Below are positions 22,743 to 46,300 of a stretch of DNA of 64,000 nt, one piece after another. The notes beneath the pieces are model-generated. The model saw only the letters and a program-made list of their open reading frames with translations. It made no database searches and was not told the DNA's origin. Every line of letters starts with the position of its first letter. Position 1 is the stretch's first letter. A program made the position numbers and the translations under genes. Origin of the DNA: Chalara sp. BL73 (taxonomy: Eukaryota; Ascomycota; Leotiomycetes; Helotiales); the NCBI GenBank assembly GCA_918026815.1, contig CAKJVC010000049.1:558001-622000 (forward strand). The letters are read 5' to 3'.

Positions 22743-24107
22743 CTATATACCAGTAGACGTATTAGCATACCTATAGGATAAAGCGGAAACTGGGCTTAGC
22801 AAGAAGAGGCTATTGATATTTATCCACTTCAGCCATGCACCAATTGCAGAAATATTTCCTGGACGACCAGCGGGTGGGTTGCGCGGCCACACTTACCCCT
22901 TGGTGGCATGGCTCACATAAAGACATGAGGTTGTCAATTCGATGCTACCGATCATAATACTAATGGCGATGGAGCGATGGCAACGACATGAACAAAAAGA
23001 AAGCCCTGAAGGCGTACTCGTCTATCGCCATCCGTGGGCCTAGCTTATCGCATTGGGTGCTCGAAATATATCGATAAGATGCAGGTTCCCCACGTCTGTG
23101 AGGTGGTATCGTGAGATCGCTTACCTGCACGTGATAGGCTAGCCCTCCCCGGATACTCTAAAATCGGCATGGCAAAAGAAAGTGAAGCCGACCAATGCTG
23201 GTCACCTCGAACCGAGTGGCTGAAACTCGACACTGTGGCTGACAGGATTCTGCTTATTTCTTTCTCCGTCGTTCAATCATCTTACTCTTTAGTCTCTAAA
23301 AGCAAGATCTCGCGTTGTACAACACTTATTGCATAGCATGATGCATGAGTCGGATAGCAAAAGAAATTAAGGCAAACATATCGAGCGACAGTATGCGTTT
23401 CCGTGCTCTAAGGCCCTGGAACTTCATTTCTTATGTGAGGTGAACAAAGAGAAGTCTAGAATATGAAAAGAGAATGTTGTTCTCTGAGTGAGGACTTCAA
23501 CCCATATAAGGGATACAAGTCGAATAAACTGCCCATACCAAGATGCATTTGCTGCAGGATTTGGTTACCGTTTTCATTGTTGCATGGTTGTTGGTTGTGT
23601 AGCTGATAGAAACATGATTTAAGCACCGCACTGAGAACTTATCTGAAGAAGCAATGCCTTCATACTAAAGGTACTGTATCAGCTCGAGATTCCTCCAGAA
23701 ATCTATTTCATCGTACCCAAATTTTCCCGTTGACAGGCTGTGAGGAGAGGATGGGAACAGCCAAGATAGCGATTACAGGAGCTCCCCAGGGCGTTTTTGG
23801 CAGGAGAATGCGGCGGGAGGTTAAGGAGGTCCAAGAGGGCAAGGCTCTTCTGAAAAGGCGTTCCAAGGGGACGGTCTTTCTCAGTGACAACATTAGAAGA
23901 GTTGCTGGAGCTATCTAACGTAGTGAGAATAAAAGAATTTGCGAAGTCTCATTGCCTAGAATGCCCTCCGATGACCAGATTGGAATTGTGAGGTTTTCTT
24001 GGCGTTCAATACGTCCCCTGGCTAATTACTGGAGGCCAGAGAGTCCATCTCAGTACTCGAAGGGATAGTCACTCGATCTCGAGTCCCGCATAAACGAGGA
24101 CCACTAG
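22743..24107. other. Intergenic, holds the unplaced first exon of the upstream regulator
   Basis: No complete gene was recognised. The first 150 bases probably contain the start exon of the minus-strand Zn2Cys6 gene. Confidence 0.4.
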
Positions 24108-25640
24108 CTATTTCTCATCATTCTGGCTTGTTCCTAAATGCGCATAAATATTATGAACCTGGGGACTCGGCTCGTGGAAGTCCCCATCGACAAAAACGTC
24201 CACTTGTTCCTTTGTCATGAATTGCTCATTGCCAAATTGCCACACAGATAAATCCTCGGGATCATTGCCCTTCATCTGAGCTTCAATGTTAAAGCTTTCG
24301 TGGTCTTCCATCACTCGCATCCATGGCTTTACTCCAGGGTCACAGAATCCGGACTTCCCTCTCACTCCACTGCATTGGATTTTTGGAGTTCTCTTGCCTT
24401 CATGTTGATAATCTTACAGCCACCTTCCACTTTCTCTTCGTCGTTCGTGTACAAGTCAATGCACTTCTTCCAGTAGGTTAGTGTTTCTATATCTTTAAAC
24501 CCCTCGATCGGCCGCGACGCTGGGATGTTTCTCGTCCCAGCCTCTTCACCTTGATGGACGAAAATTGATCCTCCAAGTGTTGTCTGCATTAGGGCGATGA
24601 GCTTGGCACCCTTTGCTCTGTAGGACTTACTGTCATCAGAGTAGCGCCAAGCAGATCTCGGATTATCGTGATTCTAAATGACTACTGAGTTTGATCCGTC
24701 ATTTTCAATCATGACATGTTGCCAGCCTGTGACAATTGACTTCATTTCTTTCACATCCCAGGACTTCAACTTCATTCTGACCTTAGACACATCTATATCA
24801 ATTACATCAAAGATAAAATTCATCCCCAGCATACCAGAATTAGCAAAGACGGTCTCGCAAACATCCTGCTCATCACTGACATCCAGAATTTCTCCCATCG
24901 TGCATCGTATTTGCTCAGAACCTCACGATGAATTTCTCGCAGATACCGGTACAATCTTGGTATATTGACGAAATATTGCAGCCCAGGCTGGTACCTCGGC
25001 CCGAGACAGAGGGATACTTCAGCGTCTGGATACTCGGGGACCATGGAGAGTAGGTTGATAACACCTATACGGAATCCGGCAGTGCCTCACCTCATCCAAA
25101 AGTGCATTGCATCCCAGATACCCTTCATTAAGGTTCTCCCAGTTCAAATCAGGTGACTCTAGTGTGAAGAGTGCCGGTAGTACTCGCCAGTCTTCTAATC
25201 ATAATTCCACGCCGAGTTAGCTTCACCAAGGATTTGAGCCCGGTTGTTGGGAGGCTCCGGCGTGCCATCAGCACTGACGTTCCTTGGTTTCTCTGGATAT
25301 ACCAATCGCGCTTCAACTAGAAAACCTCCAATGCCTCGGTTCTCTAGAAACCACATGTGCTTATTGCTGGTATGGTTAACCCCAAGATCTACCATCAACT
25401 TCATATCTCGCTTCCTCAATTCTGAAATTAGCTCATCCACGCCCCAAGGTACCATATACATGGACTATTTCCTTGTAATTCACAATGTCATTCATCACAT
25501 CTGCTTCATGTAGCCTACAGATCGACAATGACTGCACCTAATGTCTTCATTTAGTCACGCCCCATCCTGTGCCTGGGCGAGACTGGAACGACAATGGATA
25601 AACCTGGTATACCACAGCCTCTCTTTACGCCTTTTCAGTA
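24108..25640 (-). pseudogene. GH13 alpha-glucosidase / oligo-1,6-glucosidase pseudogene
   Basis: Reading the minus strand, family blocks occur in the right order but in changing frames. AVVYQVYPLSF lies near 25620 and NYKEI..VYGTL near 25480. GVDELISELRKRDMKLMVDLGVNHTS is at 25461-25370 and NNRAQILGEANSAWNYD is near 25200. YLREIHREVLSKYD is near 24920, GMNFIFDVIDID near 24810 and MQTTLGGSIFVHQGEE near 24589. GFCDPGVKPWMRVM and AQMKGNDPEDLSVWQF lie near 24350-24230. Fungal maltases have these blocks in one frame. Here stops follow SAWNYD, FRIGVINLLS is reached in a shifted frame, and the block between the N-terminal strand and the first conserved region is largely missing. It is a relatively young wreck, since many blocks are near perfect. 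Confidence 0.88.
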
Positions 25641-26314
25641 TTGAATATGAAGAATTTGTTACGGGCATATTACAGAATCGTAGATAAAATAGCAGTTATT
25701 AGCGTTTTTAATGGGAGTGTTGTATATATGCTTAGCGCTCGCGGCTGCCATACGGAGCAATGATTATATTCATCTTGCCTTAGATTTCAAAAAATTGCTC
25801 CGCCACGCTGTCTTGCTTATTCAATCGGTTCAAAGACAAGGCTGTGAGGAACCTAGAGTCATGTAGGTCGGCTAAGTCATGGACTTTATCCATTCTTCTG
25901 AATGCACTGCATTTTATTCATATCCCCCGTCCTCCGTCCCAAAATTCATTGTGACAGTGTGCTTTTGGACAGTAATTAGAGTATAATTTGTCTGAGATAA
26001 TACCGCTGCCGCCAAACTAGGCTAATATCCTGGCATCGGCAAGAAAACGGTGGCACCAATGTATTCTTTGTAAACGTATGATGTGAGTATTGAGAAATTT
26101 TATACAGTGGGAGAATTAAACGTCTCACCAACACCAACACATCTGCAGCCTGCCTACTGCTTATATTTCATAATAACGCTGATCCAAATTCCAAAACGGA
26201 AGGTGCCTTTCCAATTCCCCCAGCATCGAGATTGAGAAATCCTCGCATCAACAATCACAAGTGAACCATGAAAACACTTGCTTCATAAATCTTATCACAT
26301 GCCTCCTTAGCTCA
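25641..26314. other. AT-rich intergenic stretch
   Basis: No open frame of note. The region is AT-rich and shows no recognised repeat. Confidence 0.4.
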
Positions 26315-27420
26315 CTAATGATCCCTGAAGATACGAAAATACCATATCCCAACACTCACAAGAGTTGCTGGCACAACAAACGCCCAGTATATCCACATCT
26401 TTTCTGATACCCCCCACGACCTTGAGTCAGCCCCGTAGTCAAAAAAAGTTGTACTAAAAACAGCAGAAATGTATGTTGGAGGCAAAAAGACCAGGGCGAT
26501 AAATGAGGTAGCTTTCATAGCTTGACTGTCTGCTTTTGTTGCCTTGGCAATTTCCACTGAGGCACGCGCATCATCTTGCGAAACGACATTGAAGGCTCGT
26601 TGGATCTCGTTTTTCATTCGGTCTCGGTATGATATACAGCGGCAGTGCATACTGTAGGCCATATGTGCGTACAGTAGGAGTCTTTGATGTGTTCTTCGCA
26701 AGGCAATGTCAAGACGCGATTCGCGAGGTGAATGCTCAATGAAATCAGTGTGGTATTTTAGTATGTGGTCAAGTGTCTTGACGTTCACTCCCAAGATCTC
26801 TGAGACGGTAATAGTATGCCTGGCTACTTCGTGTAGTCGCGCGTAGTCGGTGTTTGTTTTCAGTCGTCTCACATGCTCTACCCTTTGCCCTGCTGTATTT
26901 TCTTCCGACTCCGTCAGCTCCCGTATGGCGTAAGTAGCTTTATGCTGTAAATTGAGGTAGTAGTTCATAATCAAGACATATGGCCATAGCGGATCGTTAG
27001 GTGGGCTTCTCTTTAGGTTTTGCAAGATCAAAGGAACAAGTCGGTTGACAGCCGGCACATCAGCTCTAATAAATAGAATGTTGGTCTTCTGTGATGCCCT
27101 CAGCCAATTGGTAAAAACGATGATATCTCGCCAGTGGCGGATGATCCTTTCACCCATGTTTTGAAAGATAAAATGCTGGACCAAAAAACGAGACCAAGTG
27201 TCTGATATGAAATCAGCAATATCTGGCAGAGATGCAAGACTAGTCGATACCTACTAACACTTGAAATTATTCCATCTCTATCGAAATCATCCTGGTATCC
27301 AAAATACCCATTTGACTCAAGGTATGTAGTTTCCCACCAAGTGGGCAGGAACTCAAACGACGCATTCAGATATTTAGTGCACCAATGACAGCGTTTTAAT
27401 ATATCCTCGTGCCCAGACAC
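26315..27420 (-). CDS. CorA-like magnesium-transporter family protein, N-terminus incomplete
   Basis: The long exon (27178 down to 26315) contains LWPYVLIMNYY, a charged coiled-coil region, DYARLHEVARHTITVSEILGV and, near the end, two membrane helices. The first helix starts around SFIALVFLPPTYISAVFSTTFF and the second is WIYWAFVVPATLVSVGIWYF. This is the architecture of fungal CorA-like proteins; the canonical GMN loop is replaced, as usual in this group. An upstream exon carries FLPTWWETTYLESNGYFGYQ. It can be joined at CGACTA|GTCTTG to give VSRYRLHFIFQNMGERIIRHW, although that donor is unusual. The first codon at 27420 is GTG preceded by an acceptor-like GCAG, so an earlier exon is missing. 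It may transport divalent cations. Decay of the 5' end is possible. Confidence 0.7.
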
Positions 27421-29381
27421 GCTGCGATCTTAATTAGCACAGGTCATGATTCCGAAACAGCGGTAGCTTATACGAAATAGTAACATCATAAATGCCTGCT
27501 TCCTCGCCAGACGGCTGGTTGGAAGTTGCAGAGACACTATGGTGAATCCAGGAGGTTTCCCACTCACTGGTCCCTGTGTTGAAGTTAAAATTAAGCGTTC
27601 TCTCGAGAGTCTACGACATACCTTTCCTCCATTTGAATACCTCTATCCCGGCACAATGAGCAAGCGGTGCAGGGGCCATCACCGCAACGAGTCAATCATA
27701 CAGGAGAGAGCTTTGGATAATGTCTAAGCCGCTTATAAGGAGACAAATTAGTTCGATAAATAGCATGATAAATATCATATTCCATCCACGGTATTTCTTC
27801 ACAGAGCCCAAGACTCAGCCTACTTCCAGCCACCACTACTTTTACAGTCTAAAGCCAGGAGGCTGCAGCCCTGCTGAGGCTTACTCGCGATGTCAGGAGT
27901 CTCTTGGAACGTACCATTTTCATCTTCTATTGCAAGGAAACCCGGTGGTGGGTGCCTAAATTGCGATATCATATTCTTGACTATCTTTTGAGCACAGTCT
28001 ACTCGTATAAGAATGTTATAACGCCCCCTCGACTACGAAGGATTGCGCCTTGGACAGATGGTGTGGGTAGCTGAGGCAGGATCCTGGAGAGGGGTGAACG
28101 CCCCTCTGTAATTGGACCAATCTGTTCAACACCACAACCGCCGCAATCTATGCTCGCTAGAGATCTGACAGCCTGGGAATGCAGAAGCTTCGGTCAATGC
28201 AATTTACCTCCTTGCGCGGTAATAAGTCCAGGGCTGCAACGAGATCTTTCATTGTGCAAGTTGAAAGTACGAACTTTGGCCCTGCGAAGCCAATTCTATA
28301 CAAAAAAAACTTCCTTTTCTTGCTATCACCTTGGATCAGACTTGCTCGAATGCGCCAAGTCGAGTACCGTGTGACCAGTGTCCCAATATCATTGCGGTGT
28401 TTTGGCATATGGCGCCTTAATACGTATAGTATCGACCTTTTAATACTACGCTTGTATTAGTATTAAATTATTGTAAAATACCTAATGTTAATATAAAAAT
28501 CTAATACAAGACTATACGGTAATAATATTATATATTGCTAAAACTAGCTGTGCAAAGGATTTATACAATATTTTTTTCATTAAAGTATTATTTTACATAA
28601 AATGTACAAGGTTGTAAATACGTTTGTAAAACGCGCTAAACTGAAGTTTTATAACTATACGCAGTATATAGTAATACTATGGTATAGCGTAATATAATAA
28701 TATAAGATTGCTAAATTTAATTGTCGCACGTATACAAGCTAGCAATATCAAATTGCGCGGTGTTAGTACAAGGATTTGAGGGTCGATAAACCGTGATGAT
28801 ACTATTGAGAACAATGCATGCAACAGAATGCCTCCCAACAGAAGAGGCATGCTAATTATGAGGTTCAAATCTTGGAAACTATCATACATACAAATTAAGA
28901 ATATGATGGCATGTTTTTGTAATACTTTATTATTTAGCCTGTACTAATATGATCTTCTGAGTCGTTAATCATGTGATATTCTGGTCTGAATTGAGAAAAT
29001 ACGACGATCTAGAACATTGTGAACAAGGGAGGCGCTCTTTTGTAACATGGAACGCGCCATATTCTTGGGGTTATCGCCATAAGATTTACAACGCTAGATC
29101 TTCAATGTGGTTACTCCTCACAAATAGCTTTAGCGACGACTATACACCAATGAGACTAGTTGTGAAAGGATGTCTTTAATTTTTTGTTTTTCCGTAGCTA
29201 CAAAAAGGTCTCGTGAGAGATAAGAAATATAAATACCAATTCCAATGTCTATGTTGGATAGACTTCACCTTTGACTTTTTCCCTTCTTCCGTCCGCTCTC
29301 CTCTCATTTCTATTTCCAACAGGCCAATCCTCTTCAATAGTCATACAACCATTTTGAGTTTGGTGATGATAAAAAGAGTTA
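27421..29381. other. AT-rich gene-poor region
   Basis: Nothing coding was recognised. From about 28440 to 28960 the sequence is extremely AT-rich with many TA dinucleotides. This is typical of old, mutation-degraded repeats in filamentous ascomycetes. No element ends could be defined. Confidence 0.5.
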
Positions 29382-29921
29382 TTAAACGCAAGTAGCGGAA
29401 TAAGAACGAATACCCGTAGTGAGCTGCTTGCACCCATTAGGCGTGGGATCTGCGACAGTAACAGTGATAACTCCGCCTGCGCCGCAGTTTGCGGCTTCAT
29501 AGAGTCGAACTATCGCCTATTAGCCTAACGAAGTTCATGGTCCAGATATGTAATGGGAAAATACGGAAGACGTACTGGTGCAACCAGGAAATATATCCGT
29601 GACAGTCCCGGAGATGGTCCCCGGGAGGATTGCATTGCAGGTTGTGGGGTTTAAGATGAAGCCTTCTGCGATATCTGGAGAACCGGTTACCACGCAACCT
29701 CCGCGAGACCTGGTGATCGAATGCCGGTTAGCTGAGTTGTTTTATATTAGGTCTCAAGAGTTAAACAGGACAGAGACGTTGAACAGAGTATCTCAATAAG
29801 GAAGATTGACTTACCAGAGATCCATGGTGGCGGCGAAGGGCTGGCGCACCTCGAGACTTGGGGCAGCTAGAGCGCTCGTTGTGGCCAGGACAGCGGTGAA
29901 AAAGAGGTTGGAGAATTGCAT
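29382..29921 (-). CDS. Small secreted six-cysteine protein, 128 aa
   Basis: I assembled three exons by hand: 29815-29921, 29565-29709 and 29382-29516, with phases 2 and 0 consistent. The N-terminus MQFSNLFFTAVLATTSALA is a clear signal peptide. A short propeptide-like stretch ending EVRQ follows. The mature part has six cysteines (GGCVVTG, TTCNAI, PGCTS, ANCGAGG, NGCKQL, SATCV), enough for three disulphide bridges, with the last Cys just before the stop. Size, secretion signal and cysteine pattern are those of small secreted fungal proteins, which include effectors. I recognise no named family. The second intron uses the donor GTATTT, so its exact border is less sure. The gene sits at the edge of an AT-rich region, a common place for such genes. 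Confidence 0.72.
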
Positions 29922-32240
29922 TTTGAATGGGTTGGTGTTGTGTTTGTGCTTTGTAAGATTCCTAGGAGGGATGAGACGATGATTGCTATGTTGGCCGTTA
30001 AGACTACGATATGGAATGGAAAAACGAGGTCTTTATAGGTGATAATTTTTCCTCCCAAACGGAGGGTAGAGGATCCATAATAGGTAAACGACGCTCCATA
30101 GTGGTCAGGCTCGAATCAGAACTTTCTCCATTCTTGAATATTATGCTAATGCTGCCCAGGTACACACTCAAGGGTCCTGGTAGGCATACCTGATTTGGAA
30201 GATGCACTGAGCCCATGCAAATATTTGACTGTGCCCTGATCTCGTGCCTTCTCAACCCTATCTCAGCTACGGGCCCTAACGTAAGTCATCAAAAACCTGA
30301 CGGCGCTGAGTACAGAATGACTACCTTCATTCCAGTCTTCATGGCGCCCAGACATAACTATCCATACAAATCCATGCTTAGGGATTCATTCTACGTTATT
30401 ACCAGACTTCAAATTATAAGGTAAGAGTTCTTAGTCTTGAGAATCCAAACGAGAAGAAGTTTGACTGGTTGCAGACTAGTTCTTACCTCGTGTTCCAGCC
30501 TCCCGAGAAAGCTCAAGATATAAATGCATGAGCCACAAAACGTACGAAAATTGTCATATATCTTAGTCACTAGCTTGTTAAAGCATTTAGCGGTGCAATA
30601 GACAGCGTTCATTCGAACTGAATTGTACAAGAAAATAGATGCAGCTACGCATCACCAGACTCAATCTCGGATGCACAATTTAGGCTCGCTGAAACGCGGA
30701 AATTGAGAGGGGGGAGCAATCCGAGTGATAAACATTAGTTGCAAATCCCTGTGTTCATATATTCCTCTTTCCAGACGGTGAAGGCAGTACGTCATCACAG
30801 CGCACAAGTCTAAAGATTCGAAAATGGGCAGGTGTATCTGATATAGGAAAAGGTTGTCGATATCCGCTCCAGTGGCATTCGTGCAACTTTGCATATGATG
30901 TATGTAAGTAACGTAGCGGATATTTTATTGCCCATTTATCATCGCGTAGCCTTCTAAGCCCTGTATCAAAGTTCTGAATTAATTTGGTGGCTCATGAGTA
31001 GTATACACGTTTCCCTTGTCAAATAATAATCCACTAGATCAAGAGAGAAGTTCCTAAGATCAAACGGAACTAACCTAGGGAACAATCTATCCTCGGGGCT
31101 GGAACTAAGAACTCAAACAGTCAAAAGACGTCTCAATCATCACAATACAAGAAGGATAGTCCGGCACGGCATGAATATGAGAACCGATAGGTGGTCACAA
31201 GACAGTAGCACAATAAGCTGACGGCTTTTATCACATTTAGGAAGCATATAGAAGAAGCTCGTGAGTCTCTTGTAGGAAAGCGCCAATACAGGCGATTTTA
31301 ATTTTAGTAAACACATTTGCAAAGATGCCAAACACGATGTGATCTAAGGGGGCTCCGGAATATCCATTTGTGCAATCATTCGAAGAAGCGGCCATTTTGG
31401 AGCTCGATTCGTAAAGGTTCCCCAATTGTCAGAAAGCTTACTTGCTTACAGAATGCAAAAAGTAATCATGGTTACACATGACGTACCAAAATGCTAAAGG
31501 GAATTTCCCAGCCATGGAGTTCTCTAGTATTACGTCAGACTCGGCATAACGAATGCGGAGCCGAGCAGATATATTCAAGGTATGCTTTTGAGCATAAGTG
31601 CCTAATACTTTCTATCAATGATTACGCACATGCGCCGCAGACTATTCTCAACAAAAGCTGTAAGCTGACGCGAAAAGCATGACAAAGCGCCTCACGACAC
31701 AAGACTGGCTGCTAACAATCTGAGATTGTAGATACAGGGCTCTAAAGAAGCCCTAGTTTCCAAGAATGGGCATTCAAATCGTGTAAGGGTTGGTGCACTT
31801 GGATTTTGTAGTTAGTTTGAGACATTGGCCACGGGACTTCCGATTAACCCATTAATTCTACCATAAAACACAGTCAAAAAAGGTAACGTCGCTTGAGGAT
31901 ACACGTCATAAAAATTTCATTTGAGGAGAGAATTGCCTCAGGAAGATCAACACCATTGCTCAACGATGCCCCAAACTCTTTATACCCTATGTACATCAGT
32001 TGGCAGCTCTCAAAATATGCCAGACTCCTTCTAGAAGATGCAATTTGCATATGAAGAATTCGGGAATCTCCCAGTGGAAGTGTAAGGCCCTGACAAGGTG
32101 GCTGACAAATCGATCTTTGGTGATGACCTCTTGGCGTAATCTTCATCCAACTAGACTGATACTCTCGCGAGTTTGAAATAGTAATAACTATTTCCAATCT
32201 AGTTTTTCTCTGACTGGATGTGAGTAGCTTGAGCACTCAC
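29922..32240. other. Gene-poor region with unresolved open frames
   Basis: Several minus-strand frames of 60-120 codons are present: 30661-30894, 31237-31425 and 31874-32236. Some have protein-like composition, for example a frame starting MAASSNDCTNGYSGAPLDHIV at 31395. I could not join them into a gene with consistent phases. They may be exons of a decayed or unusual membrane protein. Confidence 0.35.
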
Positions 32241-32514
32241 CGCTGGCCACTGACAGTACTATGGCAATCCATTTTGCAACCTTTGGATTGTATTTCGTCT
32301 GCACAACAACTTCACACAAAGCCATCCTAGAGGTCAGGACCATCAGTAAAACTTTATGAATCCCCCAGACAATCGCCGCCACGGCCTGCCTAGAAGTTGA
32401 AATTCTAGTATTCGGTCGCTTAGCCTATTGCAGAAATGCCAGTGCTTGTCTTATAAAAGGTGATAGAGCACATACCTGGATGAAAGACACGACCTTTGTC
32501 TCGTTTGAGTTCAT
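32241..32514 (-). CDS. Possible membrane protein, 5' part only
   Basis: An ATG at 32514 opens a 13-codon exon (MNSNETKVVSFIQ) with a textbook donor GTATGT. A 90-base intron ends at 32386. The second exon (32241-32385) reads AVAAIVWGIHKVLLMVLTSR, then KYNPKVAKWIAIVLSVAS, and ends at a GTGAGT donor in phase 1. That gives at least two hydrophobic stretches. I could not find an acceptor that continues the frame, because the obvious ones downstream lead to stops. It may be the start of a real gene, or of one broken near 32160. No family was recognised. It lies 1.3 kb beyond the 3' end of the UstYa gene, on the same strand. Confidence 0.3.
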
Positions 32515-33796
32515 GTCGGAGCCATTGCGACAGTTGATGCATGTCAGCCAGTCTCGCCTATGGGCCTATCAATAAGATTTTGTTTGAGATTCCTGGCGCG
32601 CGTATTATATTGGCTTTTACCTTATGCTGAGAGTGCTTGAGCCTTTCGCTATTTATAATAATGGTACATTAGAGTAGGGATAGAGGATTCCTATCGTGTA
32701 TTCTACCAAGTTTCCTAGAAGGTTAAACTAGCCCTCTTTTCATTTAAATCGCTCCAGACATCGCTATTGGGGTTGGCTATAGCTGCCTTTACAGCGATGT
32801 TAATTAATAGCTACCTATTAAGGTGACGAATAAGGTTTGCCCGAATGCCATACACGTGCGCAGGTATTATTTGTAGTTGACAGAATTTATTTTCACAGCG
32901 TCCGCACATATCACGACTCGCTATTAAGGGTTTATCTGAAATAGCTAGTTGCTTCGTATGGTTCCATCATCCTCCCTAACTATCCTCCTCAGACTGTTTC
33001 ACCCAATCTGTCGTTTCCGAGTTTGCGTCGCGATGGTACGGCACCATATCTTTCCTTATTTTGAGCAAGAAATTATGCAGTAAATTGTGTACGGATTCAC
33101 CGTTTATGCAGGCCTGCAATAAATATGCTCGTGGTCGAGTTGCGGAGAATGTGCTGATAGGGTTCTTCAACATCCTTAATGGCTCTCCACAGTATCGCCA
33201 GTTACGAGAGTATCTAATACTGTCTGCGCACCGGTTGCTGGGTTGCGTTGATTGTAACGCGATTTACTTGCCTTGGTGGTTCTAGGAATAAGGCTTCTAG
33301 TGATTCGACTACAGGAGACTCAGATGAAGTTCTTTGTAACGTCATGGAAACAAGCTAAACCACGAGATTACGTGTTGAATACCACTCTACTCTACGCCGT
33401 AGAACGCCTATTTACTGTAGGTATTACATTCTAACTCGGGCTCGTGAATTAGACCTGTGATTTCGGTAGAACTTATGCCTATCAAACGGTCCATCCCATG
33501 TGGTGGATGCGGCGTCAACGGATTTCCTTCCGCCCTGGTAGCAGCGGCATGCATCGCTTTTATTTTATGAGCCAGATTCATGGGGACGCAATACTCCAAA
33601 GCTGGGTTGAGACAGTGTGAAGGCAGGAAGCAATGTATGTGGGTCTTGGATATTAGCTTTTAATACTGTCTATCTCCAGATGTCATTACACTAAGGCAAT
33701 ACTCAAGGTTTGTTAACGTGTTTGTGTATATGTTAGCCTCCAAGGCCATTCCTAGCTAACGCTGTGGTGCCCTGCTCTGATTGGCAATTGTTTGTA
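32515..33796. other. Intergenic, nothing recognised
   Basis: Short open frames occur on both strands (32976-33173 minus, 33061-33285 plus) without recognised domain or intron structure. Confidence 0.4.
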
Positions 33797-34961
33797 TCAT
33801 GCATGATCATGCATATCATTGAACGGTTTTATGCTATGGCCGTGAACGAAACTTGGTCCTAGGGAAAGGTCAGAGTCACTTCTGAACTACTCTTCGAGAA
33901 AGGGAATATGTGGAAGTGTGGCTGGCAGGAGGAGAAATATCTTACCAAACTTTGGATGAACGATATAATTCTCCTGAAAGACATCAACGGTGTTGTCGCG
34001 AGAGTAATCTATCACCTTGCTGAAATCAACACATTGATGTGGCGCGGTTTGATTGACAATTGGCTGGGAATCTATATCCGTCCACATGTGTGTTATAATT
34101 GACACATCTGCTCGACATGTCGCACCCATACGCAGAACTTCAAGACAGTGCTCTGTGGTTAGTAATGTTAGAGCGATGCGGTCAATTATAAGAAGGCTAT
34201 TTCAGAGATAGGGGAGTGTCTCACTATTGTGTTCTCGATTTACGCTGATCTCTTCTTCGGTGGCATTCGGAAAGTAATACTCCGGGTGCAGTGTCTGATA
34301 AAGTCGTTTCTGCAGTTCTATCAATCAAGACTAGAATTACAATTAATGGGTTTGCGCGTTGCTTACGATGCAGTGCAGCTCGTGCATCACGCTCAACATC
34401 CCAAGGTAACCGCCATCTGGTAGCTTCACAGCTTCGTTTTCGCGTTCCCATCGGTGGATCCACTCGTCCGATACCCTTATGTTGTTGTCTGTAAATTGTC
34501 AACACTACAAGTTTGATTATGCATTACAAAATGACGAACATTGAAGCAGGTCTCTCCACGCCTTATCCAGCTCAGGCCTTGGTTCACCAGTATAGATGCC
34601 GTGTGGCGGTCCCATAATATCAAAAACCTCAAGATGTGTCTCTGTTCCTGCTAACTTTGCGGGGGCTAGGTATCCGTTAGTGATTCCAGAGCCTAATTCT
34701 TAGGATACCAAGCTTCTTACAGTCTAACAAACCAAAGACAGAGTTTGTCTTCCGTGCCCTCGTCATTGATAGCACGAATATTGTGGTGTAAGCTGCTATC
34801 AGAACACAATGCAACACCCAGGCGCGAGCATTTTGCCATTTCGACGTCCGCCTAAGTCGCTGTAGGTCGATATCCTCGAAGGAAGACTCAGAACTTCTGG
34901 ATGGTGAATCATCGGTGTAGATTGGAATATACTCTTGAATGGTCTTCTCTCGAAACGACAT
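33797..34961 (-). CDS. UstYa-family (DUF3328) oxidase, 280 aa, six exons
   Basis: Exons 34721-34961, 34540-34665, 34367-34488, 34225-34309, 33946-34152 and 33797-33858 add up to 843 bases with consistent phases. The protein starts MSFREKTIQEYIPIYTDDSP and has one membrane segment at about residues 46-66. It then shows family blocks SPAKL, GEPRPELDKAWRDLL, YNNIRVSDEW and GYLGMLSVMHELHC. These are followed by LHPEYYFPNATEEE, REHNKHC, CRADVSIITHMW and TAPHQCVDF. The two HxxHC motifs (HELHC at about 158-162, HNKHC at about 190-194) are the metal-binding signature of UstYa proteins, which oxidatively cyclise peptides in ustiloxin-type pathways. The first intron has a perfect CTAAC branch site. All key residues are present, so the enzyme should be active. 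The neighbouring secreted repeat precursor is its obvious candidate substrate. Confidence 0.9.
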
Positions 34962-36194
34962 TTTCAAATGTGAGACTTCACGTTTTACAAAGCTATGAGA
35001 GATCAAATAGAGCAAGGCCGAAAGGGCGGCAGGATAATTCACAGGTCATAGGACTAGTTTCTTGCTCGATCGCGGGGATGTCTGATTGATTGCTCATCCT
35101 TGGAAGACGAATCGTCCAACGAATGAGCCCCTTGTTCTTGATCTAGGAAGAAATTTTATGCATAGCTCTGCATTTTATGATGGCAATCTCTCCATTGGAA
35201 ACAACCCGGTTTGAATGTTCTATATGCTAGGGAGGGAGGAATGCGGATGAGGAGAAGCAACCTTCCTTTCAGAGGCAAGTTAATGGGGAAATTCCAAGAA
35301 GAGGGGCAAAGCTTGCGTCTAGCCCCTGAACCCAAGCGATTAAGCGAATCCATTCTTAACGCCAAAATAAAGTTTCCAACAACTAGCGACAAGCTTTGCC
35401 ACATGGAAGCAGCTGGCTTGTGTGCACTTCAGGCATCACAATGGGCTTCCTAATGGAGGTTTATTCGCGACGAGTACAGTCAGATAGTGCCTGATATATG
35501 CACTTCCGGGATTTCCATTTCTATACGTTGTTGTCTTATGTGAAGCGATCCCCTCTGCTACATCGCACTTTCTCACAGCCGGGCATGTAGCAGGAACATG
35601 ATTAACGCGATCTCAGTCTGTTGGGCTCCGTTTGGAACACAGCAAGTCGCTGAAGAGCCCTGCTACTGACTTAATTTCCAAAAGCTAATATGTTCATCAA
35701 ATGATTAGAATAAAAGACAACGCTATTAGAGAAGTTTGTTTCTACATTTACAAGCACTATGCTATATTTATTGGACACAGGCAGAGCTTGGCCACATGTA
35801 AGCATGTGCAATAGATTGCTTGGATCTGCTACTCATGCTCCTCTGGCCTATGGGTTTATGTCTTGGTATTTTCTTGGACCTCAAAGTTGTGGCACAAAAG
35901 TTCGAGCAAAGCCCAACGGTCACAGTTTTGTACCACCCGGGCGTTTGACTCCACTGTCACCTTCCATATCAGATCGAGATCATCATTGCTGACCCATGGT
36001 AACAATGGTTAGATCAATGAGGCACAGGCCGTTAGGACAAGATCGTCAGTGGGATTCTACGGCATGGTCTGCTTGGTCAGAGGGGCAGTGATTGATGGCC
36101 GCTCATAAGTGGAGGGTGTTTCATTAAAGGCTTCTTTCGCATCGCGAGCTTTGCCCTCCAAAACCAAATCCCACATATAGCCACTTCAGTAACT
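34962..36194. other. Divergent promoter region between UstYa gene and peptide precursor
   Basis: About 1.2 kb between two outward-facing start codons. No gene was recognised inside. It would be expected to carry shared control sites, but I could not identify a specific operator by eye. Confidence 0.5.
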
Positions 36195-36610
36195 ATGAGA
36201 GTAACCGCTGTGCTCACCACACTTGTGGCCCTCGCTCTTGCTTTGCCAACCCAGCCTCACTGTATGTGCAAAGCCCAATCCTTTGGTGTCTGCTAAGCGT
36301 ACTGATATTTGTATCAGCCAGTCTAGACCAATATGAGTCCTTCTTGCCAGTAACAACCAGGGCTGAGACCAGCGCCGACGAGTCTTACTTGCCAAACAAG
36401 CGTGCTGAAACCAGTGCCGACGAGTCCTATCTTCCCACCAAGCGTGCGGAAGCGAGCGCTGATGAATCATACCTACCCAACAAACGGGAAGAGACCAGTG
36501 CAGACGAATCTTACCTCCCAACCAAGCGTGCTGATACGAGCGCCGACGAGTCCTACCTCCCCAACAAGCGAGCGGAGACTAGTGCTGATGAATCTTACCT
36601 TCCAAATTAA
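36195..36610 (+). CDS. KEX2-processed repeat peptide precursor (dikaritin/RiPP type), 119 aa
   Basis: Two exons, 36195-36261 and 36318-36610, flank a 56-base intron with donor GTATGT, branch GCTAAGC and acceptor TATCAG. The protein starts MRVTAVLTTLVALALALPTQ, a signal peptide, so the precursor enters the secretory route. After a degenerate unit (LDQYESFLPVTTR) come six 14-residue repeats of the form AETSADESYLPNKR. Five end in the dibasic KEX2 site KR; the last ends at the stop after YLPN. The last core residue is N, T, N, T, N, N in order. This layout matches UstA, PhomA and epichloecyclin precursors, where KEX2 releases fragments and UstYa proteins cross-link a tyrosine. The constant Tyr and following three residues (YLPN or YLPT) suggest a Tyr-first tetrapeptide core as in ustiloxin. 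The product structure is inferred. A mating pheromone is the alternative, but the sequence is unlike known alpha-factors. Confidence 0.88.
36362..36607 (+). repeat. Six in-frame 42-base coding repeats
   Basis: Five full 42-base units and one of 36 bases encode the 14-residue modules of the precursor. The units differ mostly at third codon positions, while SADESYLP is kept in all six. That indicates selection on the peptide and not a recent slippage array. Confidence 0.93.
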
Positions 36611-39600
36611 GGATCCATTTGGCTTGATATTAGCTAAGTGCTGAATTTGCCTCATTCATGTAGAAGATATTGCCTCATCGCATACTTCTAAAATATTTAT
36701 GTTGGCGCCTTCTGTTGGGGGGATGACTTGGGGTGGGCTCCGAGTAGGGATTTCGGGAAGTCCTCGGTAATGTTAGAGCAGCCTTTAATATTGGGACGGC
36801 AACAATGCAGATGAATTATGATATTTAGCTCATATCTGCTTCAATCACATCGCTACTTAAAATTATTATCACCGTGTTGCGTGTTCTCTTTCCATATTGT
36901 TGGGAATTTTGTAAATGAAAGAACAAGCTGGGCGTTTCAATCTAAGCATCTATCGTGAGTATCAAGTTTGGATATTGGACTCGTTATAACATGCATTATA
37001 TTTGGCGTCGGTGACAGTAGTGATTCAGATAGTGTCACATTGAAGAGGTCAACTCGGAAGCAGGAGGCTGTAATTGGTGAATTATTGCTCTTAAAATTTT
37101 CCTTGCCTATCTGTGTTACCAACGCCTACTTTAACAGGTCACCAACCAGAGACTTGCTACGAAAAGCACCACCACAGCAACCAAGTAATAATTGAGAAGA
37201 TACCGAAGAATGAGTAACTTAGTGTAACTCACAAACTATATCATAATTGAAACCCCTGTGAGGGACATTATAAAGCAATCAGTGCAAGATCGACGCCAAA
37301 GGGGAACTCAGCAAACCGGGATAGCGACAAGAAGCAGGACAGTCTTCGATGTTATGGGAATCACGACTGCAGCGGTATATTTCTAATACAACTCACTAAC
37401 ATTCATACGATTAACGAATCAGCATTAAAAAAAGGAAGCATCTGCGAACAGTGAAACCCGCATATCCACGATATATTTCTTGAACGAGATTATATAGTAA
37501 AACTGAACGTACACGAGAAGGTGCTTAATGATGTTTAGGATATCCAATTTGAAAAGGGTCTCTAGAAGAAGGAACTTTACACTTGCTGCAAATGTCAGGT
37601 GGACCTATGCTAGTCTTAGGGTAGAGCTGTGAGACATAACGGTTGAAGAGACGGTATAGTGCCAGAAAAATTCGGCCCACAACAAGAATTTGTGAATAGG
37701 ATGAGAATTTAGAAATATAATCAGGGTAGTGACGATGAAAAGAGAAATATTCGGTAGAAATTTGTGTCTGAGGATATCTATACCTCGAGAAGGCTAGTGG
37801 ATCCTTAAATTCGGACCCAATCGGGTTGGGTTCAAAAATCAAACACTTAACCCACTAGGTTGCCAAAGCTAATCAAAACCTCAATATTTAAAGAACCTAG
37901 CTTTGTAAGCTCATTTTAACTACGAATTAAACTTAAAATGGCTTCTTGGCAACCCATTGATCTGTAGATTGGGTTCACAAGTCTAAAACCCATCCAACTC
38001 GGCCCCATTCTCCATTCTAAATATATCATTATGTTTCCAAAGCATCCATTGGCACATGTTGAACCACAAAAGCAAATTCTCTCACGGAAGGACTACTGGG
38101 CCTTATAATTTGACAACACACATCCAAATTGAGTATTAGATGGGTGATTAACTAACCATATCAATTAGACGTAGTTAGATGACGAAAGACTGCTACGCCT
38201 TACACCATGAGCAACTGGCATCAAGCAGGCAAGCTGTTGTGAGCCTGCGACAAAACCGAGAGAATTTATAGAGAAGAGCGGAACAAATCAAATTTTCACC
38301 GACACTTTTAAACAAACTAACTACGTTTAAATTTTATATCATATTATGCCCCTATTACGGTATTGTAAGGTTTGAAACTTTAAAGCAGCAAAAATTGCTG
38401 TTTTAATAGCATTATCTTCAAATCACTAGTCGTATAAGCAAAAGAAAATCAGCTTCTGATATGCCTGATCATGCATATACATAGCATGTGCCATATCCTC
38501 TGTTGGGCAATTGACTAACCACAAGGCAAGGTTTCACTCAAAACTGCATCGATGTCGAGTTCCAATTTCAAAGAATAATTTTTTTCAACTACGGCGAGCC
38601 TATCGCAGGAGTATCGCGCCATCATAAAAAACCGTTTTCCGCTGCAGATATGGACGCAAAGGCCGAAAGTTTTTTACAGTTGGGTACCCAGCAATCTTGA
38701 GGTCATATCTCTGATTCACCACGGCTACTACGAGCTGAATTTTGAGCAATCTCACGTAAAAAAGTTTCTTTTATCGAGCATGGCTGTTGTAAGAGGATAG
38801 AGAAGTGTGACACGAATCAGACCTTCATTAATACAAGTCTAATCTCTCCCCTTTCTTGCTACGCCTCCAAGCCATCTACTTATGCCCCCCTTGCCCCTGG
38901 TGGCTCTTCTACGAGGCTAAAACCTGTAGCATGTGCTGGGCCCCCATTATTTACCTGGCACGTGATGCACTGACACTTGGCAGCTAATTAAAAACTTTGG
39001 TTTCTGTTTTTCTACAGCTTTATAGCTTATGTTCGGCAGCTACAGACACGTTAATCAACCAATCTGGAGATTCTATGTAGAACCGAGACCTTTAACCTGT
39101 AGCGAGCTTGCGAACGGTTGGGGAAAGAGCGAATGCTCATATATACACATATGAGATAAAAAAAGAACGCCCCCATAATTTAACTCTCCGCATTAAATGC
39201 TTGCTGTCCAGGCAAACTTCAAGGTACGAGTATAGGCTCCTTTTGCTCATATTGGAACGACTAGACCTTCAAACGGTTCTGATTCTGTTTTCCACGCAAT
39301 TCTTCAGGTACATGGCTCCTATTTTGTCCCCATGAAATTCACATATTTTAATTATCCTACCATCCACCATACTAACTAAAGCCTCCCGGGCCACCAACAG
39401 CTTAGGAACCAAAAATTTGTCCCAAAGCCACGGATGACCACGCGAGCCGCGCACGCGCGTCTCTCCCAATTCTCGTATCAAAGCATTTGATCTACTGCTA
39501 TGTTCTTCATCGACATCGCTTTCTGGGGCTGAGTATTTGATCAGAGAGGCCTGGAACTAAAGAAGATAGGGGGCGTTGGGTTTATCTTATTTGGTGCTTT

Positions 39601-39681
39601 GGATCGAGTTCTGCCAGAAAGAGCAATAAACGAACTTTCTTTGATGCATCTCATTACAAGTAGAGCTCTAACCAACGGAGC
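36611..39681. other. AT-rich gene-poor region
   Basis: Nothing coding is convincing in about 3 kb. Around 37854-37968 there is an imperfect fold-back whose ends read GGTTGCCAA and TTGGCAACC. It may be a decayed small transposon. Runs of A and T are frequent between 38300 and 38770. Confidence 0.4.
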
Positions 39682-40498
39682 CTAGACTAGCTGGTCAGAA
39701 GATAACAATCGACCGTCTTCGAGGAAGCGGACATCCCATGTGCCCTGCTCTTTCTGGTTAACCAGATCCCAATAGACCAAGCCATGAGCTTCCCCACTCA
39801 AGTCAGGGTATGCGATAGTATCCCCGCTATCGGTTACCTGGGACGCAAAATAAAACCTTCCACGAGGAACTTTTCAGCATGAAGTAAACCCCTCTACATA
39901 TGAGATACTTACCTGAAATTCCTCTTGCTGTAGGCTTTAGCGCCAACATCAAGCAAGTGAACCAAGGCAGCTTTGCCAGCCCCAAGTGTGACTCCAGCAG
40001 GATGAGGCTTGAAAGGCAAAACATTCCCAGTCGCAATGAATACCTTGGGAGTCTCAACGCTAAGCTTCATGAAGCCCTTCACGGCTTCTCTCAACGCGAC
40101 ATAGGCTCCAAAGGTATTGAGTTCCGTGTCGTTCACTAAAGCTTGAGGACTGACGCTGAAAGGATCGTCAAAATCTTTGGGAAAGGTGACAGTAGCGGCT
40201 ACGTATTTAGGACGACGTTAGTGTTATATCCGATAGAGAATCAAGTGTGAGTGATACCATTGTACACAACGACATTTGGAATACCCAGCGATTTCGTCAC
40301 CTCAGCAAAAGCACCCTCGACGCTTTCTACTATTTTTAGGTCTACGGTGATGGCCAAAATATCTTCCTCCTTTGCTTTGTTAATGTCAGGGTTCCTGCTT
40401 CCCACAGCCACTTGATATCCTTCCGTTTTGAACTTCCTACCCACTGACCAGCCTGCTCTCGGGCCAGCGCCGAGGATCAATATAGTGTTGGGACTCAT
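39682..40498 (-). CDS. Atypical short-chain dehydrogenase/reductase, 233 aa
   Basis: Exons 40258-40498, 39913-40198 and 39682-39856 join in phase and sum to 702 bases. The N-terminus TILILGAGPRAGWSVGRKF is a Rossmann-fold dinucleotide site of the SDR family. GIPNVVVYNG matches the NNAG-like strand and FIATGN the strand before the active site. In the active-site helix the usual YxxxK reads LGAGK: the lysine is kept but tyrosine is replaced by leucine. The fold and cofactor site look intact but classical SDR chemistry is doubtful. The same substitution occurs in a subgroup of fungal SDR-like proteins, as far as I recall. It lies about 3 kb from the peptide precursor; membership in that pathway is possible but unsupported. 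The start at 40498 is the only ATG before the glycine motif. Confidence 0.85.
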
Positions 40499-43391
40499 GA
40501 CTGTAGTGTACGTTTCTGCGAGACGACTCTTAAAGTAGGTGGCTGTGCCGTGTATTTGTTAATGGAAGTGCTTAGAAATACAAACTACCCCGAGCTCCAT
40601 TTGGAATTTAGGCCCTCCTCTGATTGGTTAGAACAAAGTAATTTACTAAGCTCGGCCTAACATCGAGGGATTTCTTACAGAACCTGGATTACAAAGCACA
40701 GTCGTCTAACTTTCTCTGCAGCCCTCTCTATCCCTCTCCACCGACCAAGTTCGGAACGTTGCTACACAGCCAAGATTAGCGTATATCCTTCCTCGCACAA
40801 TCCCACATCTAAATAGTTCAATAGCTCGTTACAGCTGTTTGTATATTTCTCGACATTTTTGCCAAGCTCGATCAAGCAGATGCAGAAACCGTCGCAGCGA
40901 AAACCCGGCTCCACGAACTTTCAATCATAAGTAACGGTGTGATATCTCAGCGTGGTTGTCTTCTATCTTTGGCCCTGTGCTAGTGTCTTCTAACATTTAT
41001 TTAAACATAAATCAGGATGAAGTAATGAAGCTACTCAACATCCCTATAGCAATCAAGGGAGCTCTCTATCCCGTCATCTATCGAGCTTAGTAGTCCTCAT
41101 TTTAAGGAAATATGATCCGGATTATTTTTTACCCTCTAAAGTCGACATTCAGGCCACAATTACGCCAGCTTTATTTCGGTCATTAGATCTCGTCTCAAAG
41201 AAAACAAAAAACATGACTTAGGAGAATTTGAACCACGCATTTGAACTGCAGCAGTATTGAGGCACAAGATGTTGGGATATATACATATATGGAGTCTTTG
41301 CCGTTCACCGAGTGCTCAAATGGGGCAAGCATGGAATGCACTCTAGCCACCTGGTTGCTTGGGATGCATGTATAAACTTTCACTAAGATCACAGTATTCA
41401 GAATGACGTAAATGAAAGTATTCGATAGGAATCGCAAGTGCCATACTCGCAGTTAGACTAATGCTTGATAGTCTTCAAATAGAAGAAAATCTGGATGGGG
41501 CTTGTGGCCGTGTCTTTGGTTGCCCTGCTACGCAAGCTAATCAAAGCTGGCAACATTTCACCTATCCAGCTTATACTTAATCACCAAGGCTCGGGAGCGC
41601 CGTCGCAAGCATCCCATCTCTAGGTCCTGAAGCACCTCCTCGCGAAATGACATTACTTTATTAATATTTGCGTGGCCTATCTTATATCCGAGTTTGTAAA
41701 TAACAGTACTTAGACTGATTTGAGTCGTATACTTTCGATACTGCTTTTTATTTTTTGCTGCTACGAAAGGCTTTTTTTACGAAATTAAAGTAGGTTTTGT
41801 ACTTCAGCCACAAGCAAAAATGACTATGGATGTAGGTAGGTTTTGGGAAACGAACGTCTGGGGTTAAAAGCTTTTTTAAAATCTACAATCAAAGCGACTC
41901 GGCTTGATAGAAAAGCTATTTTCGGCGGGCTGGGTTTCAGCTGCGGCTTATAGAGCAATTTAATGTGGAGTGTTATCAATCGGCAATAGTCGCAAACCCG
42001 CTGCTATACAGACACTATTTCGTGTCTAAGTCAGTGTTTATCTGTTTTAAAACATCGTTCACGATAGGTTGTCGAAAGCGTAATCGAACTGCAATTACGT
42101 ATACAGGACTAAAAACAAACTAAGAGATGTTAATATAAAGAAGTCGTGTACTGGCGAGTCTAGACGCCACTGAAGCTCTTGCTGGCTTTCAAAGCTTTTG
42201 CCATATTCGTTACTGTTAAAGTGTGTACTGGTGGAATTGGGTGTTGTTAAAGCACCCGCTGCTAGAGTTACTGTTGCAAAAGATGCACTTGTACCCCATC
42301 CTTAGGTTATTAGCGCTAGCTGGGCTGAGTATTAAAGAAGGAGAGGATATTTTCCCGAGGAAGCTACTTAAAGAGATGTACAAGAAAGCAGATTGCCTAA
42401 AGGGGTCTCAAGGAATACTCTATCATTACCAAAGATTTTGTTAGATGGTAGACAAATTAATAAAAAGATGATGCTGGACTTAGGAGATTACGTCGTTATA
42501 TCGTCCCTGGCAAGATCTACCATGGGAGAGAGTTGAGAGCTTGTATTGAAGCAGATAGCTAGGAGGACTTGGGCGAATAGCAAAGCTTTTGTACTTTATT
42601 GCCTTTTGCTAAGGCGGAGAAGTCTGTAGGTGTGCTATAATTTCTTGAAAAGTAACTTAAGTTGATTGAAAGCAACGACCGCGTCTTGGGGTCCACTTAA
42701 CAGTAATGAAAACGCAGAGACGCGACCCATGCTCTATTATAGCAGAGCAAGGTCGATACTGTGGGACCTCGGCTGCACTGTAATGTAACCGCAATATCCT
42801 GATCATATCATCACTCTTTAAAAAAACATCGCCATGTAAGCTTTAGCTGTCGTCTCTTGGAAAGCATGAAATACCACTCATCATAATAGTGTGGGTGTAT
42901 AGTTATGTGGGCAAGATGCACCACATCAGACGGTATTAGCATCGGGTGCATATACCACATTTGATGCACTTGCCCTGCTCATGCAAGCTAAGCTTCAGGC
43001 ACGGGGAACTCTGTCACTGCTTGCTCTTCAGGCACCCTGCCGAAACTGAAGAGTTAGCTAGATTTCTCAACTCAAGCTGTATTTCGGTGCAAGGCGGCCT
43101 TAGGTAAGTATAGTTATCGATAGCCCAGAAGATACGCCAATCCTGCGAATTGCGGGAAGTGCGTCTTTGGCTTTAACAGTGTACCGGAAATGCCGACCAT
43201 GAAGAAAATACGTTCGTCACGGATTCAATATGATTTTCTTCCCAACGCTCAGCAACTCATTGTTTGAGTATTGTAGGAAGATGTCGCCAATCGATTCTCC
43301 GGTGCACATTCTGCTGCGGTAGTGGAGGCCCTAAGGAACCTGGAAATCTTCTTGAGTGTGCTTCAAATTTGGTAGCCTCGGCATCGTCACC
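40499..43391. other. Gene-poor region, likely degraded repeats
   Basis: From about 41600 to 42650 the sequence is AT-rich with fragments of long open frames on the plus strand (for example 42223-42444). This suggests a mutation-degraded transposon, but no transposase motif could be named. The last 300 bases are the promoter of the SPX-EXS gene. Confidence 0.35.
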
Positions 43392-46300
43392 ATGAAGTTC
43401 GCTAAGGAGTTGGAACAAGACCTCGTGCCAGGTAAGGCAGTTTCTCTCTGTGATACGAGATAGAAGACTGAATATTCTACAGAATGGCGTATCAAATATT
43501 TAGACTACAAGCAGGGCAAAAAGAAGGTGAAGGCTGTAGCAAGAGCAGTAAATCGGGCAACAGCTACCCCCAGAACGCCAGCACAACCACAATTGCGTCC
43601 TCGAGCATATAGCACATACGGAGCAACGTCCTCAATAACTCCTAGGCCTAAAGTACCGTCCACATTGAGAGCTCACAATGGAAGTCATGACCTGGGGGCA
43701 GTTGAGTCTTTGCGCCACTCTCCAGCTCCTCTCGGCATAGATTCTCGACCAGCATCCCACGAATCTGCGGACGAAGCCATCAGAAAAATGAAGAAGACAC
43801 CACCAATTCCTGTGCCAACGAAGAAGAATTCTGAAACTTCGAATCTAGGTGGCTACTATGGTAGTTTTGTTCCAACCCCACCAACTGCGACAAACACTCG
43901 GTTTGAACTACCTGATCCCGCAGTTTCTCCACAAACACCATTGCATGCGACTATCTCGAACTATGCATCTGACAGCGATTCAAGGCCACGGCCTAAAACA
44001 CGGCGCAGTGCTTCCATTCCAGTCGAGCCTAGCGCGTATGAAGTGGGGGAAACAACATCACCGAGCAGATTTACATTTGCATCGTTAAGAAGCCACCTAG
44101 CCCATAAACAGAATGTACGACCGTTTATGAAGCGAATATTTTCTGTCGGAGGTCCAATGACACCGAATGAGACAACTCGACTTGAGGTGGATATGGTGGC
44201 TATGGATCATGTTCGGGCGCGACAAAAGGAATTTTTCATGTGGATGGATAAGGAACTTGATAAGGTGGAAGGTTTCTATAAATTAAAAGAAGATGAAGCA
44301 GGAGAACGATTGATAATCCTCCGTGAACAATTACACGAGATGCGAAATAGAAGGATTGAAGAGTTGGCGGAATTACAGCGTTTAAAGGCCGCGCGCAAGG
44401 ACGATGATCGATCTGTCTTTGATTTTTATGGCCCTCGCAATAATGGAGAGTCGACAAAGGATGAGGACAGGAGTCGACCAAATTCTCGAGATCATCTGCA
44501 AGGATGGTTGAGTCCATTGGAAAGAGTCATTGGAGAGACGAAAGCCAAGATTATCAAACCTGGCTCGAATTCAAAAGCGTTGGCAAAAATGTCACCCTCT
44601 CCGGTATTGCAAAGTAGAAACGATCCTGGCCAAGACTATGTCCGCCGCCATCACCACGACAATAATGTTCCGTATCGAAGCGCCAAAAGGAAGCTAAAGC
44701 TCGCCCTTCAGGAATATTATCGTGGCATGGAACTGCTGAAATCGTATGCGCTTCTTAACCGAACGGGTTTCCGCAAAATTAACAAGAAGTATGACAAAGC
44801 GGCCCATGCCCATCCTCCCTTGCGATACATGTCTGAGAAAGTAAATCAAGCGCGTTTTGTAAAGAGTGACATCTTAGACGGATACATGCATGCTGTAGAA
44901 GATCTGTATGCTCGATACTTTGAGCGAGGCAATCACAAAATCGCTACAGGCAAGTTACGAGGCAGCCGCAACAAAGTTACTGATCAATCAGCCAGCGCAT
45001 TTCGAAATGGTGTTCTTATTGGAGTGGGAGCGGTCTTCTCCACCCAAGGTCTCATATATGCATCAACCCTGCTAAACCATGATGATCCGGTAATTCGAGT
45101 ACGGACTAGTTATCTACTACAGATCTACGGGGGTTATTTCCTAGCTCTCTACCTGTTCTCGTGGTTCTGCTTGGCATGTAGTATCTGGACTAAGAACAAG
45201 ATCAATTACCAATTCGTCTTCGAATTCGATACGAGACACAACCTCGATTGGAGAGAACTCTCAGAATTTCCCTCATTCTTCATACTTCTGCTTGGACTAT
45301 TTGTTTGGCTCAACTTCTCGAGGTATGGGGCGCCTGAGATGTATATATACTACCCAGTGATCTTGATCTTCATTACGGCCCTTATCATTTTCTTGCCGGC
45401 GCGTACTATTTTTCATAGGAGCCGAAGCTGGTTTGTCTACTCACATGTAAGCCTCTCTTGGAATTCTCATGTCGTTGAATTAATTGATATAGTGGCGCTT
45501 ACTTCTTGCCGGTTTATATCCCGTCGAGTTTCGTGACTTCTTTTTAGGAGACATGTTTTGTTCTCTAACTTATCTCATGAGTGTAGGCACTTCTGAGCCC
45601 TTTATCTCATTTGTACTAACCAACAAATGTAGAATATTGAACTTTTTTTCTGCTTGTATGCGCATTTCTGGAGTAATCCTCCGCGGTGCAATAGTTCGCA
45701 CTCTCGGCTCCTCGGCTTTTTCTCAACGTTACCGGGCATCTGGCGAGCGCTGCAGTGCATTCGTCGGTACTATGATACACGAAATATATTTCCTCACCTA
45801 GTAAACTGCGGGAAATATGGCATGACTATAATGTTTGGCGTCACACTCAGCCTATACCGGATTCAAAGGAGCAATAGTATGCTTGCACTTTTCACAACTT
45901 TTGCCACTATCAACTCTATCTATTGCAGTAAGTAGAAACAACACCACTCATTGATTCATGCTCATCAACTTAGTAATATGGGACCTTTTCATGGATTGGT
46001 CTCTCTTACAACCCGACGCCAAGAAACGATTTTTACGTGATGTTCGGGGTTATAAAAACCCTAAATGGTACTACTTAGCAATGATACTTGACCCAATTCT
46101 TCGATTCAACTGGATATTTTACTCCATCTATACGCACGATCTACAGCACAGCACTATCGCATCATTCATGGTCGCTTTCTCTGAAGTTACACGGAGAGGA
46201 ATGTGGACCATCTTCCGTGTTGAAAACGAGCATTGCTCAAATGTGGCTCGATTCAAGGCGTCCCGTGACGTGCCACTGCCTTATGATATCGAAGCATCTT

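Follow-up and report, generated by a model that had tools for sequence, protein, structure and literature searches.

The DNA analysed here (64 kb, positions 558001–622000 of contig C44 in an assembly of 58.7 Mb and 199 contigs; hereafter the window) was found to contain a pair of complete genes which can with good confidence be regarded as a minimal, two-gene RiPP locus of the dikaritin type. Sequence reading and splicing by script placed a repeat-bearing precursor gene on the plus strand head to head with a UstYa-family gene on the minus strand, with 1,233 nt between them (Table 1). Dikaritins arise when UstYa homologues cyclise peptides from Kex2-repeat precursors, and only five had been reported as of December 2022 (PMC10512285). 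The assignment to this class had been suggested by an earlier note on the same DNA and is probably right, as both the gene pair and the class fit the published description (PMC10512285). At the level of sequence, the locus has a signal-like start, Kex2-separated units, an adjoining UstYa gene and a Tyr in the repeated core, which are features of dikaritin loci, and it probably makes a new cyclic peptide of this known fungal class.

Table 1. Features of the precursor/UstYa gene pair (window coordinates)
Feature	Position	Strand	Basis and remarks
UstYa exon 6, including stop	33797..33858	-	splice model; His-rich tail past the Pfam domain
UstYa exon 5	33946..34152	-	splice model; second part of HNKHC
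UstYa exon 4	34225..34309	-	splice model; first part of HNKHC
UstYa exon 3	34367..34488	-	splice model; ends just past HELHC
UstYa exon 2	34540..34665	-	splice model
UstYa exon 1	34721..34961	-	splice model; most hydrophobic stretch at residues 47-67
Divergent intergenic region of the pair	34962..36194	.	1,233 nt, from the gene models
Precursor exon 1	36195..36261	+	splice model; hydrophobic signal-like N-terminus, most hydrophobic 13-mer at residues 5-17
Precursor intron	36262..36317	+	56 nt, GTATGT...CAG; predicted from sequence
Precursor exon 2, including stop	36318..36610	+	splice model
Worn unit 0, SLDQYESFLPVTTR	36320..36361	+	ahead of the six units; likeness judged by eye
Six units of 14 residues (the last of 12, then stop)	36362..36607	+	tandem repeat, period 42

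Precursor gene and repeat units

The precursor gene (36195–36610) consists of two exons with one 56-nt intron and encodes 119 aa when spliced by script, which bears out the earlier description of a secreted-type precursor with six 14-residue units, five of them closed by KR. The signal-like character of its start was judged from sequence and hydropathy. It had also been claimed that neither gene is visible as a single long ORF; this holds for the UstYa gene, but the precursor repeats occupy one 160-codon stop-to-stop frame, from which the start and the signal-like part are split off. No Pfam family was found for the precursor protein, and a search of its own genome gave two other, weak hits only (E 0.49 and 3.5). 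A sequence search of solved structures at E up to 1 returned no relative. The repeat array exceeds chance expectation: with a repeat scanner, the 64-kb window yielded a single array, whereas 60 first-order Markov resamples of this sequence yielded none.

After a short lead, the units read in order AETSADESYLPN, AETSADESYLPT, AEASADESYLPN, EETSADESYLPT, ADTSADESYLPN and again AETSADESYLPN. Their ends are N, T, N, T, N and N, with KR closing units 1–5 and a stop codon right after YLPN in unit 6. The worn unit 0, which is absent from the earlier note's description, has ESFLP, with Phe in the place of Tyr, and lacks a dibasic site, so that cleavage by Kex2 alone would leave unit 1 attached to the lead.

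The stretch SADESYLP is identical in all six units, giving Tyr in 6/6, yet all eight of its codon columns vary. Over the 15 unit pairs, pS was 0.884 and pN 0.068 (pN/pS 0.077), and 31 silent and 6 amino-acid-changing differences from the consensus were counted across the units. When these substitutions were placed at random 20,000 times, a mean of 25.3 were amino-acid-changing (minimum 15), and 0/20,000 placements had as few as observed. On the basis of this ratio and of the random-placement test, the repeat units are old and have been kept by purifying selection. As SADESYLP is invariant although its synonymous sites are nearly saturated, the part upstream of YLPN/YLPT is constrained too, and the narrow YLPN/YLPT core that had been proposed was not established, all eight residues being conserved.

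Alpha-type mating pheromone precursors have the same general layout, with a signal-like start and KR-separated repeats, and such a precursor could lie beside a UstYa gene by accident. The repeat of filamentous-fungal alpha pheromones bears Cys and Trp, whereas neither is found in the units described here. A search of the genome with an alpha-pheromone repeat, run without a positive control, gave no match and speaks for neither side. Almost all pheromone KEPs are without a UstYa-type neighbour (PMC7329392), and a pheromone origin is considered highly improbable.

UstYa gene

The UstYa gene (34961–33797, minus strand) was spliced by script into six exons encoding 280 aa, with five GT-AG introns of 55, 51, 57, 72 and 87 nt. 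Its completeness, its HELHC and HNKHC motifs and its divergent position ~1.2 kb from the precursor, all described previously, were reproduced. UstYa (PF11807) is the single Pfam family found for the protein, with a score of 158.5 bits (cut-off 25; E 2.9e-46) and a match spanning profile positions 5–220 of 220. The paralogues giving the four strongest matches elsewhere in the genome are 29–35% identical to it. HELHC aligns with the first HxxHC motif in 7/7 paralogue pieces; the second motif, HNKHC in the window protein, is unbroken in 5/7, with one piece ending before it and one broken by an unspliced stretch.

In the window protein, HELHC is followed directly by IKRLYQ, whereas all seven aligned paralogue pieces have Leu first and most have Arg fifth. 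The protein thus departs from the usual paralogue pattern, Leu-Asp/Asn-x-x-Arg, and does so at the site of the third intron. The model of this intron was kept because the distance to the next conserved block, PEYY, matches that in one paralogue, with no gap required.

Genomic setting of the pair

The flanks were scanned by six-frame Pfam searches with X at stops, covering 23900–33801 and 36600–46501 on the plus strand and 23900–33801 and 34900–44801 on the minus strand; short exons can escape detection in such scans. The scans gave only a split alpha-amylase domain (~24.5–25.4 kb) and an SPX-EXS gene from ~43.4 kb. No tyrosinase, transporter, reductase (isoflavone-reductase-like genes included), peptidase (S41 included) or Zn2Cys6-type regulator was found in the flanks scanned, which extend ~8–10 kb to each side of the pair. 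Zn2Cys6-type pieces were matched by Pfam on the left, at 11 kb and beyond. Measured from the UstYa gene, an amino-acid permease is found on the left at 16 kb and a partial MFS match on the right at 27 kb. Among the 39 tyrosinase (PF00264) matches in the genome (E 0.001), none lies on contig C44. Between ~27.3 and 43.4 kb, the pair and a small secreted frame near 29.9 kb were recognised and no other gene.

The small secreted frame (~29400–29921, minus strand) bears Cys, starts with MQFSNLFFTAVLATTSALAAP, comprises several exons and lies ~4 kb from the UstYa gene. It had no Pfam match in the flank scan and may encode an effector or an antimicrobial. The alpha-amylase domain (PF00128, ~24518–25437, minus strand) is split across two frames, which indicates either an intron or a broken gene. 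Within the divergent intergenic region, a 20-nt direct repeat (35392–35411 and 35785–35804, 90% alike) was noted as a candidate regulatory site.

Sibling loci in the same genome

The genome gave 89 exon-level UstYa matches, of which two are the window's own. Their large number suggests a filamentous ascomycete as the source; an exact 5.8S rRNA pattern gave no match. The survey of sibling loci took 22 stretches holding 44 of the 89 (merged to 32), with the other 43 falling outside it. A repeat scan of these stretches identified six further distinct KR-repeat precursors beside UstYa genes, on contigs C86, C41, C97, C14, C184 and C150, whose units are unrelated. A signal-like start is visible in 5/6 and was not seen for C86. 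In the four tested (C184, C41, C97 and C86), pN/pS was 0.056–0.176. Each of the six is divergent from its nearest UstYa match at 1.4–1.7 kb from the scanned units, a distance which runs to the matched UstYa exon and not to the gene start.

The divergent order of precursor and UstYa gene was thus observed in 7/7 loci, the window included, with one doubtful hit dropped. This was a two-unit hit on C121 (L036), convergent with and 2.4 kb from a UstYa match, which was excluded for lack of a signal-like stretch at the start of its frame; were it kept, the count would be 7/8. Opposite-strand and shifted shadow frames of the C41 and C107 arrays had also been dropped beforehand, and C107 and C60 were left out of the count as near-identical copies of C41 and C86. 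Orientation played no part in finding the loci. The probability of 7/7 by chance is 6e-5 if one in four pairs were divergent and 5e-4 if one in three were, although the loci may share descent. Two of the siblings have a further UstYa match 2.2 kb away, convergent and on the other side of the precursor on C97 and tandem on C184.

A candidate promoter element shared by the seven divergent regions was unsupported, with exact k-mers being no more frequent than in random background pieces: the numbers of exact 7-, 8-, 9- and 10-mers common to all seven were 2, 0, 0 and 0 against control means of 3.15, 0.45, 0.27 and 0. The copies left out of the count are near-identical over at least 6.7 kb (C41/C107, L024/L025) and 7.6 kb (C86/C60, L023/L031) and represent either duplications or uncollapsed haplotypes.

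This arrangement bears on whether the precursor merely yields unmodified linear secreted peptides of the signal, hormone or cell-wall type, with the adjacent UstYa protein acting on something else. Linear KEP products exist, 78% of KEPs are without a UstYa-type neighbour (PMC7329392), and no further tailoring gene lies in the flanks scanned. The head-to-head pairing in all seven precursor loci found argues against such a reading, as does the low chance of a UstYa neighbour within 1.5 kb, roughly 0.4% on the assumption of some 55 UstYa genes, and linear products are regarded as unlikely.

Two of the sibling loci are larger, with several UstYa matches each. On C184 (~102.9–117.0 kb; L039, L040), a candidate larger cluster holds a KR-repeat precursor with PSWYYD units (seven found) and also two tyrosinase regions. 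On C97 (~10–33 kb; L032–L034), a run of UstYa matches surrounds a precursor whose TNIYPSV units number eight, with units 1–7 alike. The genome therefore holds both a fuller cluster, that on C184, and the two-gene form.

The existence of this fuller cluster, with its several UstYa genes and two tyrosinase regions, could be taken to suggest that the window pair is a relic of a larger RiPP cluster in which both genes are intact and the product is no longer made; in addition, a small secreted frame is all that was recognised beside the pair between ~27.3 and 43.4 kb. Against this, neither frame is interrupted, the splice sites are usable, the repeat unit is strongly constrained, and the six-frame Pfam scan of the flanks revealed no remnant of another tailoring gene. 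A relic is quite unlikely on this evidence, and a two-gene dikaritin-type locus is the preferred interpretation.

Proposed biosynthesis

In the pathway proposed for this two-gene locus, whose genes would be co-regulated, the precursor would enter the secretory pathway, Kex2 would cut after the KR sites and a carboxypeptidase would trim KR, leaving 12-residue peptides ending in YLPN or YLPT. One precursor gene would in this way give two product series, N and T. The genome has a single gene with a proprotein-convertase P domain. The last unit would end at YLPN by itself, which would be consistent with mature peptides ending in Asn or Thr once KR has been trimmed, and unit 1 would remain attached to the lead if no cut is made at TTR as well. 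A membrane-anchored UstYa protein, with its two HxxHC motifs as the presumed metal site, would oxidise the Tyr-containing end, most likely cross-linking the Tyr ring within SYLPN/T through an ether or similar bond, and the conserved SADE stretch may serve recognition.

In ustiloxin, the cross-linked position is the residue two after Tyr. Here this residue is Pro, and a bond of the ustiloxin type cannot simply be carried over; Leu, Asn and Thr are candidates for providing the partner atom. UstYa proteins can also hydroxylate, chlorinate and desaturate (PMC12048977, PMC10512285), so that a non-cyclic modification of the peptide is possible.

A more speculative proposal, which we put forward only tentatively, is that fungal cyclic peptides diversify by way of the head-to-head pair as their elementary cassette. 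Precursor and oxidase would be kept together by the divergent region that they share, slightly longer than 1 kb, while the repeats are replaced beyond recognition; here the cassette would be reduced to two genes, and a single UstYa protein would modify a new SYLPN/SYLPT scaffold in full. If this is true, the locus would provide a minimal pair of substrate and enzyme in which the action of one UstYa protein on one peptide could be studied more simply than in the ustiloxin and phomopsin clusters with their many genes. The recurring divergent cassette may be the more interesting point than the locus itself. The divergent order, constant among the seven loci counted here, would be a simple rule for matching a precursor with its oxidase, testable in other fungal genomes. 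Six words for gene orientation were searched for in the main text of PMC7329392 and none occurs there.

Comparison with known systems

The pairing of a KEP with a UstYa gene is not rare, given the six other loci in the surveyed part of this genome and the 1,758 of 7,878 KEPs with a UstYa-type (DUF3328) neighbour in a published survey (PMC7329392). In that survey, the gene most often adjoining a KEP is of the UstYa type, and Tyr is present in 65.6% of KEPs with such a neighbour compared with 38.2% of those without (PMC7329392). The SADESYLP unit is absent from the main text of PMC7329392, whose supplementary tables may contain it, and from the literature text searched; it is also not in the accessible text of PMC7099791 nor among the conserved motifs listed in that of PMC6339444. 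One text match for the unit strings was an unrelated paper, a survey of data leakage; others were to farnesyl-, mesyl- and the like, and among the matches listed none contained the two longer strings.

The statement in the earlier note that known loci pair exactly these two gene types was too strict, since other genes are also present in the clusters for ustiloxin, phomopsin and asperipin (PMC6514808). The closest arrangement is the asperipin-2a locus of Aspergillus flavus (aprA, aprY, aprT, aprR), which like the window locus has one repeat precursor and one UstYa homologue, AprY, essential for asperipin-2a, and no tyrosinase (PMC6514808). However, the asperipin locus has a transporter and a reductase (PMC6514808), neither of which was found here in the flanks scanned, and its core sequence is unrelated to that of the window precursor. 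The ustiloxin and phomopsin loci share with the window locus the signal-like start, the KR-separated units and the UstYa family, and an acidic pair precedes the Tyr core in UstA (ED) as in the window precursor (DE plus Ser) (PMC6514808). In contrast, both depend on a tyrosinase and on several genes of the UstYa type, alongside other tailoring genes (PMC7329392, PMC6514808), whereas the window locus has one UstYa gene and contig C44 no tyrosinase match. The locus is not of the ustiloxin/phomopsin type, as it lacks a tyrosinase, and the Zn2Cys6-type regulator and S41 peptidase of such clusters are likewise absent from the flanks scanned. Nor is it of the full asperipin type, as no transporter or reductase lies close by. 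Characterised clusters all have other tailoring genes, whereas the window pair has none by Pfam within ~8–10 kb. The pair belongs to the class of KEPs with a DUF3328/UstYa neighbour (PMC7329392), and its nearest counterparts in layout include the six sibling KR-repeat/UstYa pairs, which are divergent like it and differ from it in having unrelated units.
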